NCBI GenBank assembly: GCA_903851195.1
Contig: CAINNJ010000025.1
Location: 124,001-188,000, forward strand
Direction: 5' to 3'
Origin: an uncultured Acidobacteriia bacterium
GTDB lineage: Bacteria; Acidobacteriota; Terriglobia; Bryobacterales; Bryobacteraceae
Length of the DNA: 64,000 bases
Below, piece after piece: positions 42,599 to 49,551 of the stretch (positions within the stretch are counted from its first letter, which is position 1; each line of letters begins with the position of its first letter). Below the pieces are notes generated by a model that saw nothing but the letters and a program-made list of their open reading frames with translations, was not told where the DNA came from and did no database searches. The position numbers were made by a program, and so were the translations under genes.

Positions 42599-45500
42599 AT
42601 GAAAAAAAGTACTGCATTATTAATTGGACTGTTGTCCTTCGCCTCGCTGCATAACGCCGCTTATGCGCAGGGACTGCTCGGAACGATTCTGGGGAACGTG
42701 ACCGACACGAGCAACGCTTCCATTGGAGACGTAACGGTCTCCGTCAGGAGTCAGGCGACGAACCTGCAGGTGACGGCGAAGACGCAGAACAACGGCCTGT
42801 ATCAGATTCCGAACCTTCCGATCGGCACTTACACGGTCACGTTTCGCAAGGAAGGTTTCGACAGCGAGTCGCATCCCGAGATTCTGGTGCAGGCGGAACG
42901 CGCCACCACGGTGAACGGCGCTCTGAAAGTGGGCGCGATCAGCACCACGGTGGAAGTGACCGGCACGCCGCTGCTGAATGAGACGGATCCGACCAATGGT
43001 TACGTGCTGGAAGAGCGCACCATCCGGGAGACGCCGCTCGGCACCGGGAGTTTCACGCAACTGGCGCTGCTTTCGCCGGGCGTGAACGCGGACTTTCTGG
43101 CCGGCACGGGGTCGAACAGCGGCCTGGGCAATCAGGCGATCTGGGCCAACGGACAGCGGGACTCGTCGAACAGCTTCGTGATCAACGGCGTGAATTCGGA
43201 TAACCTGTTCAACGGGAAATCCGGCAGCCAGGTGGATTCCAGCCGCTTTACGCTCAACACCGGCCAGGGCAGCACGGTGGCGGGCGAGGTTCGCACGAAT
43301 ACGTCGGTTTACGACGGCATCGGCCAGGCGCTGCCTTCGCCGCCGCAGGAGACGCTGCAGGAAGTGCGTGTCAACACGGCGATGTACGACGCGACCCAGA
43401 GCGCGAAATCGGGCGCGCACATCTCGCTGATCACCAAGTCGGGATCGAACGCCTTTCACGGCGAAGTCTACGAGTATTTTCAGAACAATATTTTCAATGC
43501 CGCGCCGTTTTTCCGGAATGCCAACACTTCCGTGCCGGCCGGCCAGAAGGTGCCGCCGCTGCACTACAACCGCCCGGGCGGCACCATCGGCGGACCCATC
43601 CTGAAAGACAAGCTGTTCTTCTTCGCGTCGTTCCAGGCGCTGCGGGTGAGCGATAACCTGGCGGGCACGCAGTCGCAGACGGTGCCGCAGCACCTCACCG
43701 ACGACCGCAGCGCGGCGACGCTCTCGGCCGTGGCGCAGCAGGATCTCGGCGTCGCGGTGGCGGCGAGCCAGATCGATCCGGCCGCGCTGAAGATCATGAA
43801 CGCGAAGGTCAACGGCACTTACTTCATTCCGAGCGCCACCATCACGGACCCCGTGCTCGCGAAACAGCTGGGTTATAACGTGACCGTGACCGGCAGCCCG
43901 AGCACTTCGCAGGCGTCGATCGCAACCGGCAGCGTGGATTACAACTGGACGGACCGGGAGCGCCTCAGCGTGAAGTATCTTTTCCAGGATGCGCCGAACT
44001 ACAACCCTTACGGCGGCGGCACGGCGATCAATGGTTTCGGCAAGTCCCTCGATTCCGGTTCCGAACTGGCGTCCATCGATAACACCACGGTGCTGAACCC
44101 GAACCTGACGTGGGAAAACAAACTGGGTTTCGTCCGCATGCGGTCTTATGCCAACACACAGCAGCCGTTCACGCCCGCCGATCTGGGTGTGAATCTCTGG
44201 GGCATCAACACGTTCCCGCAGATCTCGCTGGGCACGGTCGACAATGCCCTGAACAAGACGCTGAGCTTCGGACCGAGCGGCAATTTCGCGAATGTCGGCG
44301 TGTTTCAGAATAAATGGGATCTGAGCTCCACGGCGAACTGGGTCCGCGGCCGCCATACGTTGTCCTTCGGCGCCACGTGGAACCACACGCAGCTGAACGT
44401 GATCAACCGCAACACGCAGGCGGCGTCCATCGCGTTCACCAATTTCGCGCAGTTCCTGGCGGGCGCGGAGAACACGTCGAGTTCCACTTTCTACAACGGT
44501 TCGGCGAACCGCTATTACCGGGCCGATCAGGTGGGCGCGTTCGCGCAGGACAGTTATAAGCTGAAGAGCAATCTCACGCTGAGCCTCGGCTTCCGCTATG
44601 ACCTGGAAGGTCCGCTGAGTGAGAAGCACGGCACGCTGGTCAATTTCGATTCCGATCTGTACAAGTACAACGCGGGCACGGACACAATTACGAACAGCGG
44701 TCTGGTTTTCGCCGGGAATTCTCCCTACGCGACGAGCGGCGTTTCGAATTCGACGCTGAAGGGCCGGCAGTTCGGCTTCGGACCCCGGCTGGGAGCGGCG
44801 TGGAGCCCGGGCTTCGTGAAGCATCTGACCGTTCGGGCCGGCTTCGGACTTTACTACGACCGCGGCGAACTTTTCACGTACTTCTCACCGGGCGCGGGGC
44901 GCGGTTTCAGCGGTCCCTTCGGCGTCACCATGCAGTTGCCCTTCACGGTGCCGATCAGCGCGCCGCTGAACGGGACGCTGTCGAATCCCTTCGGGCCCAC
45001 CGCGCCGGGAACGCCGGGTGACCCCGCCGTGCTCGCGAAACAGCTGCCCAATCTGGCGCAGATGGTCGGCGGCGCGGCGCCGTATATCTTCGGGGGCTAC
45101 GATGCGCACAACACGCTGCCTTACACCATGAACTGGAGTTTCGATCTGCAGTACCAGCCGGTCAATTCGTGGGTTTTCACGCTGGGTTACGTGGGCAACC
45201 ACGGCGCGAATCAGGTGCTGCCGGTGCCCTTCAACCAGCCGGGCATCGCGACGGCGTCGAATCCCATCAACGGCCAGACTTCCAGCTATGGCTTCAACAT
45301 CGTGCCGGCGGAAAGCGTGGCGACTTACGAGGGCGGCAACACGGATCTGCGGGTGCCGTATCCCGGCTTCTCCAGCAACTCGGTGCTGTACCGGACTTCC
45401 GGCTTCTCCAACTACCATGCGCTGCAATCGAGCGTAAAGAAGAGCTTCAGCCATCACTTCCAGGCGTCGGCGTCTTACACCTGGTCGCATGCGCTCGATG

Positions 45501-46273
45501 TGCAGTCGAATCTTGGCCTGTTCTTCAACGGCAACAATCCGCTGGAACCGAGCCAGTCCTATGCGTCCTCCACGTTCGACCGCACGCACGTTTTCAACTC
45601 CACATGGACTTACGACATTCCCGGAGTTTCGGCGAAGACGGGGCTCCTGGCGGCAGTAGTGAACGGCTGGACGCTGAATGGCGTGGTGGGCCTGCAGAGC
45701 GGCCAGCCCTACAACGTCTATGACTTTTCGGGCGCCGTGGCGGGGCTTTACAACAGCACCACGATCAACATCGCCGATCCGATTATCGGCTTCCAGCCGG
45801 GCGTTTCGATGTCCGATCTGCGGCTGCAGGGAACCACGGGCGTGAATCCGCTGAAGCCGCTGTTCGATGTGTCGAAGCTTTATATACCGACCATCGCTCC
45901 GGGAACGATGGGCGTTCCGCCCTGCGCGACCGTAAGCGGCGCTACGGTTTGCGATACGTATGAGGCGGGATTCTCGGCTACCGGCCGGAATACCTTCCGC
46001 GGGCCGTTCCAGACGCGCGCGGATCTGGCGCTGGGCAAGACCACGAGGATCACGGAGCGCATCGGGCTGCAGTTGCGGCTGGATGTTTTCAACGTGCTCA
46101 ACCATCCGGATTTCGACGTTCCGAGCGCGAGCACCAGCCTCTACAGCGTGACGCGATCGGGCAATGCGATTAAGGCAATTACGGTGCGCGCTCCGTCGGC
46201 CACACTTGGTTTGCTGCAGCAGACGCTCGGCAGTCCGCGTGTGATGCAGCTTTCGGCGCACATCCGGTTTTAA
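42599..46273 (+). CDS. Large TonB-dependent receptor, Oar-like
   Basis: 1224 residues. Signal peptide (MKKSTALLIGLLSFASLHNAAYA), a carboxypeptidase-regulatory-like domain (about 28-110: GTILGNVTDTSNASIGDVTV, YTVTFRKEGFDS), a plug segment (LNETDPTNGYVLEERTIRETP, ISLITKSGSNAFHGEVYEYFQN) and a long beta barrel to the C-terminal aromatic HIRF. This size and the QEVRVNTAMYDA motif are typical of acidobacterial SusC-like/Oar receptors, which take up oligosaccharides or other large molecules. There is no SusD partner next to it. It is divergent from the response regulator and may be under its control. A large hairpin follows the stop. Confidence 0.9.
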   Translation: MKKSTALLIGLLSFASLHNAAYAQGLLGTILGNVTDTSNASIGDVTVSVRSQATNLQVTAKTQNNGLYQIPNLPIGTYTVTFRKEGFDSESHPEILVQAERATTVNGALKVGAISTTVEVTGTPLLNETDPTNGYVLEERTIRETPLGTGSFTQLALLSPGVNADFLAGTGSNSGLGNQAIWANGQRDSSNSFVINGVNSDNLFNGKSGSQVDSSRFTLNTGQGSTVAGEVRTNTSVYDGIGQALPSPPQETLQEVRVNTAMYDATQSAKSGAHISLITKSGSNAFHGEVYEYFQNNIFNAAPFFRNANTSVPAGQKVPPLHYNRPGGTIGGPILKDKLFFFASFQALRVSDNLAGTQSQTVPQHLTDDRSAATLSAVAQQDLGVAVAASQIDPAALKIMNAKVNGTYFIPSATITDPVLAKQLGYNVTVTGSPSTSQASIATGSVDYNWTDRERLSVKYLFQDAPNYNPYGGGTAINGFGKSLDSGSELASIDNTTVLNPNLTWENKLGFVRMRSYANTQQPFTPADLGVNLWGINTFPQISLGTVDNALNKTLSFGPSGNFANVGVFQNKWDLSSTANWVRGRHTLSFGATWNHTQLNVINRNTQAASIAFTNFAQFLAGAENTSSSTFYNGSANRYYRADQVGAFAQDSYKLKSNLTLSLGFRYDLEGPLSEKHGTLVNFDSDLYKYNAGTDTITNSGLVFAGNSPYATSGVSNSTLKGRQFGFGPRLGAAWSPGFVKHLTVRAGFGLYYDRGELFTYFSPGAGRGFSGPFGVTMQLPFTVPISAPLNGTLSNPFGPTAPGTPGDPAVLAKQLPNLAQMVGGAAPYIFGGYDAHNTLPYTMNWSFDLQYQPVNSWVFTLGYVGNHGANQVLPVPFNQPGIATASNPINGQTSSYGFNIVPAESVATYEGGNTDLRVPYPGFSSNSVLYRTSGFSNYHALQSSVKKSFSHHFQASASYTWSHALDVQSNLGLFFNGNNPLEPSQSYASSTFDRTHVFNSTWTYDIPGVSAKTGLLAAVVNGWTLNGVVGLQSGQPYNVYDFSGAVAGLYNSTTINIADPIIGFQPGVSMSDLRLQGTTGVNPLKPLFDVSKLYIPTIAPGTMGVPPCATVSGATVCDTYEAGFSATGRNTFRGPFQTRADLALGKTTRITERIGLQLRLDVFNVLNHPDFDVPSASTSLYSVTRSGNAIKAITVRAPSATLGLLQQTLGSPRVMQLSAHIRF

Positions 46274-46278
46274 GTCCA

Positions 46279-46320
46279 ACAGGTCCGTTCGATAATGAAG
46301 CGGTGATCGAACGGACCTGT
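46279..46320 (+). promoter_or_regulatory. 15-bp hairpin spanning the start codon of the TIGR03435 gene
   Basis: ACAGGTCCGTTCGAT (46279-46293) pairs perfectly with ATCGAACGGACCTGT (46306-46320) around a 12-nt loop. The loop ends in the GTG start codon (46303-46305) and the 3' arm is codons 2-6. It begins five bases after the stop of the TonB receptor gene. CTCTCTGT follows, a poor U-tract, so it could end the receptor transcript or block initiation of the next gene, or both. Confidence 0.65.
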
Positions 46321-47076
46321 CTCTCTGTACTCTTCGCCTGCGTGCTGCTGAGCGCGCAGGCGTTGCATTTTGAGGTGGCGTCGCTGAAGCCGAGCGCGCC
46401 GGGGAAGAACTTCGGCGGCATCCGTCCGGCGGCGGGGGGACAGCGGTATCAGGCCACCAACTGCCCTCTGCAGCTGATGTTGCAGGTGGCGTTTCGCGTC
46501 AAAGCCGAGCAGATTCAGGGCGGGCCCGCGTGGGTGCAGACGGAACCGTTCGACATGGACGCGAAAGCGGAGCGGCCGTCGAGCACCGAGGAACTGCATG
46601 CGATGCTGATCGATCTGCTCACCGAGCGGTTTCACCTGCGTTATCACAAAGAGAAAAAAGAAATGCCGGTCTACGCGCTGGTGGTGGACAAAGGCGGGGT
46701 GAAGATGACTCGGCATGAGGCCGCGAATGCCGGCGAGCCGTGGATCGACACGAATATCAGCGGTATGGTGCGGGTAAAACTGAAGGCGATTTCCGCGCCG
46801 ATGGATTACGTCGCGTTTCGGCTGGCGCAGATGCTGGACCGGCCGGTGGTGGACTTGACCGGGCTGCGGGGCGGTTACGATTTCACGCTGGATTACACGC
46901 GCGAGTTGCCGCCGGGCGTGCCGGAGAATGCGCTGCTGAACGGCGCGCCCATCGACACGTCGGGGCCGACGATCTTCGCGGCCGGGCGGCAGCAACTGGG
47001 GCTGGAGTTGAAAGCGCAAAAGGGCTTCGCCGACGTGATCGTGATCGATCACGTGGAGAAGCCCTCGGAGAATTAG
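46303..47076 (+). CDS. TIGR03435 family secreted protein
   Basis: 257 residues. Signal-like N-terminus (CLSVLFACVLLSAQAL), then FEVASLKPSAPG, TNCPLQLMLQVAF, a WVQTEPFDMDAKA segment, LLTERFHLRYHKEKKEMPVYALVV and RPVVDLTGLRGGYDF, all diagnostic of TIGR03435. The family is abundant in soil acidobacteria with many paralogues per genome; its function is unknown, and members are often next to M56-type sensor peptidases or regulators, which are absent here. The GTG start lies in the hairpin described above and no Shine-Dalgarno is visible, so translation may be controlled. Another start further in would remove the signal peptide. Confidence 0.88.
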   Translation: MIERTCLSVLFACVLLSAQALHFEVASLKPSAPGKNFGGIRPAAGGQRYQATNCPLQLMLQVAFRVKAEQIQGGPAWVQTEPFDMDAKAERPSSTEELHAMLIDLLTERFHLRYHKEKKEMPVYALVVDKGGVKMTRHEAANAGEPWIDTNISGMVRVKLKAISAPMDYVAFRLAQMLDRPVVDLTGLRGGYDFTLDYTRELPPGVPENALLNGAPIDTSGPTIFAAGRQQLGLELKAQKGFADVIVIDHVEKPSEN

Positions 47077-47088
47077 GCTTGCATCCGA

Positions 47089-49551
47089 TCAGATCGGCGC
47101 CATGATGGGCGGCGTGCCGGACGACTTCTTCGGCGCCATCGGGTTCTGGGCATAGCGCGTCAGGTCGCGTTCCATCTGGCGGAGGCTGGCTTCATTGACC
47201 GGGTCGGCGTCTTTGAGACCGGCGACCGTGGTCCGGATGTTGGCGAGTGAGGCCATCACCACCGCTTTGACGTCCGGCGTGGCGTTGGGGCTGGCGCCGA
47301 GAGTCATCACCGCGTCGAGGAAAACGCGCTGGGTCTGGCGCTGCATCGAACGGAGCATGCCGGCCGGCGCGGGCGAGCCGAAGACCTTCTTCGCGCAGGC
47401 GTCGATCATTTCGGGCAGGGTGAGAGCGTTCTGCTGGCGATCGGCAAAGCCGATGAGACGCGCGGCCGTTTCGGGCTCGAAGATCTGATCGAACACCAGT
47501 CCGGCGATGGTGCGGGCCGCGGCGAGGTGGTCGAAGGCGGCGCCGGTGGAGGACTCCATGTTTTCCTGATCGGGACCGCGCGCGCCGCCGCCACGGCCGC
47601 CCGACACGCTGCGGTCGACGGCAACGGTGAGGCTGGCGAGCAGGGCCTCGGGGATGGCGAGGCTGGCGGGATCCACGTCGTCGAGCAGCAGGCCGAGGAT
47701 CTCACGCTGTTTGGCGGCGGGCACGATCTCGGTGGCCGGGATGGACTCGCCCTTCACAGCGAAGTTCGTGTACAGGCCGCCGATGTAGCGGACGCCGCTG
47801 TCGATGGACCAGCGGTGGTGCAGGTAAGTCATCCAGAGGCGGATGCCGCGGAGGTCGCCGAGTGGCTCGCCATCGCGCAGAACGCCGGGGCCGTAGTTGG
47901 CGAGCAAAATTTTGCGCTGCGCGGCGGCCTGGCGGAGGTATTCGGCGGGGTCGGGACCGTCGTCGTAGCGGTTCCAGCGGGGGTCGGTGGAAGGCGTGAA
48001 GAGCAGGCCCGCTTTGCGCATGTCTTTGATGATGTTTTCGAGACCGGCCTGTTCCTGCGCGGGCGGGAATTCGGTGTAGGCGTAGCGCACGGTCATGATG
48101 TCGTAGGCGCCGATCTGCTTCTGGTAAGCGTCGGTGAGATCGATCTTGCCGTTCACGACCTTGAGCCGGGGCGACGGGTACTCCATGACGGAAGCGCGGT
48201 CGTTCATGCTCGAGTTCCAGTTGTGATCGAAGCCGAGGGTGTGGCCGGTTTCGTGGGCCGTGAGCAGCGCCTGGCGAAGCAGCACGAGTTGCTGTTCGGT
48301 TTCGGGCGTGGAGTACGGGGGCAGGCCGGCGTCGAGGAAGCCATCGTCATCGCCCCCACCGCCGCGCGCGGTCTGCGGTTCGTAGGTCTGCCAGTAGCGG
48401 CTCACGGTGCGGACGCGGTCGGACTCCAGGCGCACGCGGGCGGCGAGGATTTCACCGGTGCGGGGATCGGTGAGACCGCCGCCGGTGGAGTAGCCGCGCT
48501 CGTCGCGATCCACCCAGTAGATCTGGTTGTAACGAACGTCCATGGGGTCCATGTCGGCCGGGGTGTCCTTGATCTGGAGCGCGTTCTTGAAGCCGGCGGC
48601 CTCAAAGGCCTTGTTCCACCAGAGGAAGCCGTCTTTCATAGCTGAGCGGGTGGGCTCCGGAACGGCGGCGTCGAGGTAATAAACGATGGGCTGTTTCGGC
48701 TCGCTGAGAGCCGCGTTCGGATCCTTCTTTTCGAGGCGATGGCGGCGGGCCCATTCCACGACGTTGGAGGAAGTGGGCGGGAGCGAGTAGTCCACGAAGC
48801 GGATGCCCTGAACGCCGATGCGGGGATCCGTCTTGCGCGGCTTGTAGCCGGTGGGCGGCTCGACGAAGCTGTAGTGCAGGCGGCCGGTGAGCACGCGCGA
48901 TTCGGGCGCGGTGCGGGCGCCGCCGGTGACGGCCTCATAGGTGGCGGTCACTTCCACTTCGCTGTTCTTCGGGAAACCCTTGGTGTGGGGCAGGTAGATG
49001 GCGCTGCGGGCGGGATCGAAACGCCACGTGGTGCCGGCGATGAGTTCCACGGCCTGGGGACCGCGACCGCCGCCACGTCCGCCACCGGCGCTGGCTGCCG
49101 CGAAACCGGCGGAATCGCGGACGACCAGAGGCGTGGCGTCCACAATAACTTTGCCGGCCTCCGTGCGGATAACGGGCAGGCTGGCGATGATGGAATCCGG
49201 GAACGAAGCGTCAATGCCTTTGGCGATACCGGGTCCGCCGGTGCCGGCGCGGAAACGCAGATTCTTCTGCACCACCATGACTTTGGGGCCGACGCGCTGG
49301 AACTGAATCACGCCGCCTTCACCGCCGCCGGCCCATTCGAGGCCAACGCTCCCGGAGCCGCTGCCCTTGGCGACAGAGGTGAAGTAGAGGATGTCCTGGT
49401 CGAAGCGGGTGAGTTCGAACAGCAGGCGCCCCTGTTCGGCATCCCAGAGCATGGGGATGTAACCGTCGCGGCGTTCCGGCCCGGACTGGGCGCTCAGAAC
49501 GCCTGAAAACAGGGCGATCAGGACGATGGACTGAGTGAAAGAGGATTTCAC
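47089..49551 (-). CDS. Secreted zinc metalloprotease (DUF5117/DUF4953 type)
   Basis: 820 residues from GTG 49551, which has AAGGAG seven bases upstream; a longer frame to 49638 has no such site. Signal peptide KSSFTQSIVLIALFSGVLSAQ. DUF5117-like beta domain (about 80-200), then the metzincin-like zinc motif HETGHTLGFDHNW near residue 435 with three His ligands, followed by MEYPSPR, which serves as Met-turn. The C-terminal part is helical. These exported proteases are common in Bacteroidetes and Acidobacteria; substrates are unknown. The gene is convergent with the TIGR03435 gene (12-bp gap). Confidence 0.92.
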   Translation of the reverse strand: MKSSFTQSIVLIALFSGVLSAQSGPERRDGYIPMLWDAEQGRLLFELTRFDQDILYFTSVAKGSGSGSVGLEWAGGGEGGVIQFQRVGPKVMVVQKNLRFRAGTGGPGIAKGIDASFPDSIIASLPVIRTEAGKVIVDATPLVVRDSAGFAAASAGGGRGGGRGPQAVELIAGTTWRFDPARSAIYLPHTKGFPKNSEVEVTATYEAVTGGARTAPESRVLTGRLHYSFVEPPTGYKPRKTDPRIGVQGIRFVDYSLPPTSSNVVEWARRHRLEKKDPNAALSEPKQPIVYYLDAAVPEPTRSAMKDGFLWWNKAFEAAGFKNALQIKDTPADMDPMDVRYNQIYWVDRDERGYSTGGGLTDPRTGEILAARVRLESDRVRTVSRYWQTYEPQTARGGGGDDDGFLDAGLPPYSTPETEQQLVLLRQALLTAHETGHTLGFDHNWNSSMNDRASVMEYPSPRLKVVNGKIDLTDAYQKQIGAYDIMTVRYAYTEFPPAQEQAGLENIIKDMRKAGLLFTPSTDPRWNRYDDGPDPAEYLRQAAAQRKILLANYGPGVLRDGEPLGDLRGIRLWMTYLHHRWSIDSGVRYIGGLYTNFAVKGESIPATEIVPAAKQREILGLLLDDVDPASLAIPEALLASLTVAVDRSVSGGRGGGARGPDQENMESSTGAAFDHLAAARTIAGLVFDQIFEPETAARLIGFADRQQNALTLPEMIDACAKKVFGSPAPAGMLRSMQRQTQRVFLDAVMTLGASPNATPDVKAVVMASLANIRTTVAGLKDADPVNEASLRQMERDLTRYAQNPMAPKKSSGTPPIMAPI

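Follow-up and report, generated by a model that had tools for sequence, protein, structure and literature searches.

The transposase genes of IS10/Tn10 and IS200 are protected from outside transcription through the folding of RNA, where read-through transcripts fold over the start of the gene, and transcripts from the gene's own promoter are made without the upstream arm. Works by Davis in 1985 and by Beuzon in 1999 are reportedly tied to this protection. A terminator that also hides a ribosome-binding site has been proposed as well, with no demonstrated case as of 2010 according to that source (PMC2965389). Leaderless genes are predicted in all three of three Acidobacteria genomes, where they make up 9.7-19.4% of genes (13.3% on average), and they carry a -10 box of the TANNNT type approximately 12 nt before the start (PMC3160421). 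An RNA-seq-based study reports that termination hairpins commonly lack a U-run and that hairpins are commonly clustered, with less than 15 nt between them (PMC8355165). Judged by titles and the openings of abstracts, the literature yielded no description of a terminator whose loop contains the start of the gene that follows.

Here we describe a hairpin at 46279-46320 of a 64,000-nt window (G000:C25:124001-188000; window positions are used below) from the 7.72 Mb genome of an uncultured Acidobacteriia bacterium, where the end of a TonB-dependent-receptor-like gene meets the start of a TIGR03435 gene. The putative logic of a read-through fold set against an own-promoter RNA is analogous to that of IS10/Tn10 and IS200 protection, but the window has ordinary chromosomal genes, a predicted leaderless start, and neither a transposase nor repeat copies. 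An origin as a repeat or mobile element is rejected, since 46250-46380 is single-copy, with no second copy in the genome, and the gene is a TIGR03435 gene, as opposed to the multi-copy mobile element expected of the IS type. In common with intrinsic (Rho-independent) terminators, there is a strong stem within 80 nt of a stop codon, and two hairpins lie 14 nt apart (cf. the clusters of PMC8355165); unlike them, the hairpin has a 12-nt loop, no U-run, and a 3' arm that codes for the next gene. As in the leaderless genes of PMC3160421, GATAAT lies at -12 to -7, there is no Shine-Dalgarno sequence and GTG is at the expected RNA start, whereas the candidate promoter and start lie inside the 3' hairpin of the upstream gene. 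The proposal of PMC2965389 likewise has one hairpin serving for termination and a translational block, but as an attenuator in the gene's own leader, while in the window it would be at the end of the preceding gene.

Geometry, chance and conservation of the hairpin

The upstream gene (open reading frame 42599-46273, + strand, TAA at 46271-46273) encodes a TonB-dependent-receptor-like outer membrane protein (CarboxypepD_reg plus OMP_b-brl_4; Pfam PF25183 with an E value of 3.8e-160, plus PF13620). The 5' arm (ACAGGTCCGTTCGAT, 46279-46293, + strand) starts 5 nt past this TAA, and is 100% complementary over 15 perfect pairs to the 3' arm (ATCGAACGGACCTGT, 46306-46320, + strand), placing the hairpin at +5 to +47 relative to the receptor stop. 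Between the arms are 12 nt of loop (AATGAAGCGGTG, 46294-46305, + strand), of which the last triplet is GTG (46303-46305), so that the 3' arm constitutes codons 2-6 (I E R T C) of the open reading frame 46303-47076. The perfect 15-bp stem, the start codon at the end of its loop and the coding 3' arm are all as the first-pass annotation had described them. A three-codon frame without a Shine-Dalgarno sequence (ATGAAGCGGTGA) is also found at 46295-46306 in the loop, its stop overlapping the GTG start as GTGA.

Stems and starts were scanned in 2.4 of the 7.72 Mb, while statistics of -10 boxes, U-runs and fold energies were taken from 1.6 Mb. Genes were called by a crude purpose-written script in two versions. 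Perfect stems of at least 14 pairs with loops of 3-20 nt occur 13 times in the 2.4 Mb against a Markov expectation of 0.2 per set, and those of at least 15 pairs eight times, with none in ten first-order Markov sets of the same size. Eleven of the 13, the window hairpin included, are centred no more than 60 nt past a stop codon, where 2.85% of all positions lie (controls for these post-stop stems kept dinucleotides). Given this excess and its location just 3' of stop codons, the hairpin is not due to chance. Fold energy, on the other hand, is weak as proof that the hairpin is exceptional. The stretch 46265-46345 folds with -30.3 kcal/mol (z -3.8, equalled by 1 of 200 shuffles), and the RNA leaving the receptor gene (46274-46330, carrying both arms) with -26.8 kcal/mol, as do the 60 nt around the start; by fold energy alone the TIGR03435 start ranks 20th among 1103 called starts, and 42 of 991 stretches around internal ATG or GTG codons fold as well (1.6 Mb sample). 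No Rfam model of a known structured RNA or riboswitch matched 46000-46700 at E values up to 1.

The nearest TIGR03435 relatives in 19 genomes of the genus are found in G006, G016 and G009 (61%, 51% and 48% identity, respectively). In G006 and G016 nothing matches the receptor at E 1e-60 or better, in G009 the relatives of the two genes are on different contigs, and the relatives of the receptor (84% identity and less) are followed by other genes. Adjacency of the receptor and TIGR03435 genes is kept in no relative found, and neither the receptor's relatives nor those of the TIGR03435 gene conserve the arms. A scan of named genomes gave one distant match only, in a Terracidiphilus MAG (32%). 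The annotation had stated that arms lacking conservation would refute it; relatives of either gene do lack them, but this applies in a weak sense only, as no relative has the pair adjacent. The lack of conservation would be in keeping with a mutational accident, where a template switch has produced a perfect palindrome with no function, and the codons of the 3' arm, being mostly common, are compatible with this too (codon bias is uninformative here, with TGT accounting for 21% of Cys codons). We consider such an accident quite unlikely, as it would have to fall within the 2.85% of positions that hold 11 of the 13 strong stems, and a second case with the same topology exists in the genome.

Strong hairpins at the 3' ends of genes

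Since it is not a product of chance, and strong stems cluster just 3' of stop codons, the hairpin is most likely the 3'-end hairpin of the receptor gene, though without a U-run. The concentration of 11 of the 13 strong stems after stops makes it a member of a regular class in this genome, that of strong 3'-end hairpins, and within the 2.4 Mb sample these are often without a U-run. The hairpin itself has a strong, G+C-containing stem soon after the stop, but the bases that follow (CTCTCTGT) hold four T in eight with no run, and for this reason it is not a canonical intrinsic terminator. The consensus terminator scan, which also limits loops to 8 nt, does not list it.

Relatives of the receptor gene show a comparable tendency. 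Among 30 paralogues examined out of the genome's matches to PF25183, a perfect stem of at least 8 pairs is found in the 90 nt after the stop in 11 (0.8% in shuffles) and is missing in 19, and about half of the 11 are without a clear U-run. The 3' flank could be read in ten orthologues (the sequence of an eleventh, L174, stops inside the gene), and three of the ten (L168, L169 and L175) carry terminator-like hairpins with 11-15 perfect pairs at +22 to +61 and T-rich tails. Their sequences are unrelated to the window arms, and different genes follow. The earlier suggestion that the hairpin may end the receptor mRNA is thus consistent with the clustering of stems after stops and with the stems of paralogues and orthologues, while the missing U-run speaks against termination of the canonical intrinsic kind.

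A second stem-loop (46335-46362, + strand; 12 pairs with one G-T, loop of 4, followed by TTGCATTTTG) is found 14 nt past the first, where the TIGR03435 gene encodes its signal peptide, and is listed as terminator-like by the consensus scan. Stems like it occur at +15 to +90 of 15 out of 1896 starts. By analogy, the two hairpins may form a two-hairpin cluster, but the second may equally be a by-product of G+C-rich Leu and Ala codons.

The 2.4 Mb contain many very strong perfect hairpins immediately behind stop codons (for example C25:143867-143922 and C4:344735-344775), a good part of them without a U-run, and in one the arms are themselves nearly palindromic (TGCTCCGCGCGCGGAGCATG). One 14-bp perfect hairpin with a 3-nt loop (G000:C58:358287-358317) is more than 60 nt from any called gene. 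The PF25183 receptor family has 67 matches in this genome.

Start and candidate -10 box of the TIGR03435 gene

The downstream gene (46303-47076, + strand) matches the TIGR03435 model with 217 bits against a cut-off of 40, and DUF3738 with an E value of 4.3e-53; its product begins with what by eye is a signal peptide (MIERTCLSVLFACVLLSAQA). GTG 46303 is very probably the true start, because its orthologues in G006 and G016 have their starts at the equivalent position. The alternative GTG at 46342, favoured by the first of the crude gene callers, was rejected, as it would lose the signal peptide and conflicts with the orthologue starts. Translation from further downstream, which had been named as grounds for abandoning the idea, is unlikely on the same evidence.

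Directly upstream, across the boundary between 5' arm and loop, is the -10-like hexamer GATAAT (46291-46296, + strand), which agrees with TATAAT in five of six positions, although it is not a literal TANNNT. It occupies -12 to -7 and ends 6 nt before the GTG. No Shine-Dalgarno 4-mer is found at -16 to -5, in line with what was first noted, and its absence is ordinary for a leaderless gene. This locus has both features of such genes, a -10 box at about -12 and no Shine-Dalgarno sequence.

How far such hexamers mark starts in this genome can be seen from the first gene caller, the only one used for -10 statistics because the second rewarded -10 and Shine-Dalgarno motifs. Requiring A2, T6 and a match to TATAAT of at least 5/6, hexamers beginning at -16 to -11 precede 56 of 995 called starts, against 32 of 20858 internal ATG or GTG codons. 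The hexamer and a Shine-Dalgarno 4-mer tend to avoid each other, being found together twice where 12 are expected by chance, the pattern that is described for leaderless genes (PMC3160421), and under these strict definitions 729 of the 995 starts have neither. TIGR03435 genes carry such hexamers as a family: of 36 loci entered, 28 gave starts that agreed with the motif rule (loci yielding none were dropped), and five of these 28, including the gene in the window, have a -10 of at least 5/6 at the leaderless place, while 500 shuffles gave 0.4 on average and 3 at most. A paralogue in the same genome, L003, has the same GATAAT before its start, and the relatives in G006 and G016 have TAAAAT and TAAGAT 7 and 6 nt upstream of the ATG, respectively, and lack such a hairpin.

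As GATAAT occupies the place of the -10 in this genome's leaderless genes, the TIGR03435 gene probably has its own promoter, with a predicted RNA start at the GTG and a transcript without the 5' arm. The weak point of this reading is the -35 region, which is poor by eye (TTTTAA at 17 nt), together with the consensus scan of 45900-47200, which lists no sigma-70 promoter. An RNA beginning at the GTG would have its first 8 nt unpaired in the fold of 46303-46362, whose energy is due mainly to the second stem-loop; 46303-46342 alone folds with only -6.3 kcal/mol.

The missing consensus promoter would also suit an operon in which the hairpin does no more than form or process the 3' end of the receptor mRNA, and RNase cleavage within it gives the read-through RNA a 5' end near the GTG. 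The two genes are co-directional and 29 nt apart, and the hairpin has no U-run. This reading is nevertheless unlikely, given a -10-like hexamer at leaderless spacing and the hexamers of the G006 and G016 relatives, which in the absence of a hairpin suggest own promoters there too.

The arms could instead act as DNA. The perfect dyad of 42 bp, whose centre is some 3.5 bp 5' of the GTG, covers the presumed -10 and the start, and might be the site of a putative dimeric regulator that blocks the promoter. This is highly improbable, as the dyad is present only once in the genome and no recurrence of its half-sites at other promoters was found: with up to two mismatches there are 16 in 7.7 Mb, both arms included, which by estimate is about the random number (although a reversed-pattern control gave 2), and the three copies with one mismatch, when placed against the frames, are all inside open reading frames. 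The genome's strong stems, moreover, sit after stop codons.

Putative insulation and a second case

From the arrangement of these elements, we suggest that the 3' hairpin of the receptor gene has been laid over the start of a separately promoted, leaderless TIGR03435 gene, and that this insulates the two, a reading to which we give a probability of roughly 0.55. RNA running out of the receptor gene would fold the full hairpin, by which its 3' end may be marked, stopped or protected, and the same fold would enclose the next gene's GTG in a loop that offers no ribosome-binding site. The TIGR03435 gene would be driven by its own promoter, with GATAAT across the 5' arm and loop as its -10, and its RNA would start at or next to the GTG; lacking the 5' arm, it would form no hairpin and be translated from its 5' end. 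A leaderless start requires a free 5' end, and in the read-through RNA the GTG would have none, nor a Shine-Dalgarno sequence, and would be in a closed loop. The predicted outcome is the insulation of two co-directional genes within 29 nt.

The first-pass annotation proposed that the hairpin may keep the next gene off, so that the two genes could be exclusive. The former is plausible for read-through RNA only, as the TIGR03435 gene's own RNA would lack the 5' arm. Exclusivity is unsupported, since GATAAT at leaderless spacing suggests an own RNA from the GTG; with a second gene that probably has its own promoter, and only read-through RNA that folds, insulation fits better. The annotation's idea amounts to a translational switch, where a hairpin on a joint mRNA silences the second gene unless some signal opens the stem, and the GTG in the loop, the lack of a Shine-Dalgarno sequence and the -26.8 kcal/mol fold over 60 nt around the start are what such a switch might look like. 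It appears very unlikely, however, with no Rfam match in 46000-46700 and arms that are not conserved, and a leaderless start would make a switch unnecessary.

A start codon between the arms of a perfect stem of at least 11 pairs is found in two of 1891 starts scanned, where shuffled starts, keeping base composition only, give none above 10. The two strong cases are the window hairpin and G000:C25:291303-291328 (- strand; L089:11300-11331), a canonical terminator of 14 pairs that follows a DUF5670 gene and ends in a U-tract. This is a small number, and among the 1891 starts weaker stems of 8-10 pairs are no more frequent than in shuffles, leaving a general rule unsupported. In the second case, the 4-nt loop ATGA holds the ATG of a tannase-family gene with a signal-peptide-like start, and codon 2 is AGG, which accounts for 3.6% of Arg codons, a suggestive codon bias. 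Seven of ten tannase orthologues have, by eye, a hexamer of the (G)AGAAT or GAAAAT type 7-8 nt before the start, and none of the ten has a perfect stem of at least 7 pairs there. As most of the orthologues keep the hexamer and none has the stem, the leaderless start looks to be older, with the terminator superimposed on it in a genome where a different gene chances to lie in front. In both cases the genes are a co-directional pair (12 nt apart in the second, 29 nt in the window) without a Shine-Dalgarno sequence, and the downstream protein has a signal-peptide-like start.

Insulation at these loci, read more broadly, may represent a compact insulator within coding sequence, in which the 3' hairpin of one gene holds the -10 and start of the next, leaderless gene. 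The same bases would then bring the upstream RNA to an end, or silence it, and give rise to the downstream RNA, the two RNAs differing only by the 5' arm, and the two cases in 2.4 Mb would suggest repeated origin where leaderless genes closely follow another gene. We regard this generalisation as tentative, and as possible rather than probable. If it is true, a terminator and a start codon can occupy the same bases wherever the start is leaderless, a densely packed genome rich in leaderless genes can separate neighbours without intergenic space, and there is a simple rule to seek in other leaderless-rich genomes. It would also be a natural case of one hairpin that both ends an RNA and blocks translation of the following gene, close to the idea that PMC2965389 gave as undemonstrated in 2010. 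The arrangement by itself says nothing on the function of the TIGR03435 protein, which has 15 matches in this genome. The number of TIGR03435-like genes varies widely within the genus, from 0 to at least 42 matches at E 1e-20 or better.
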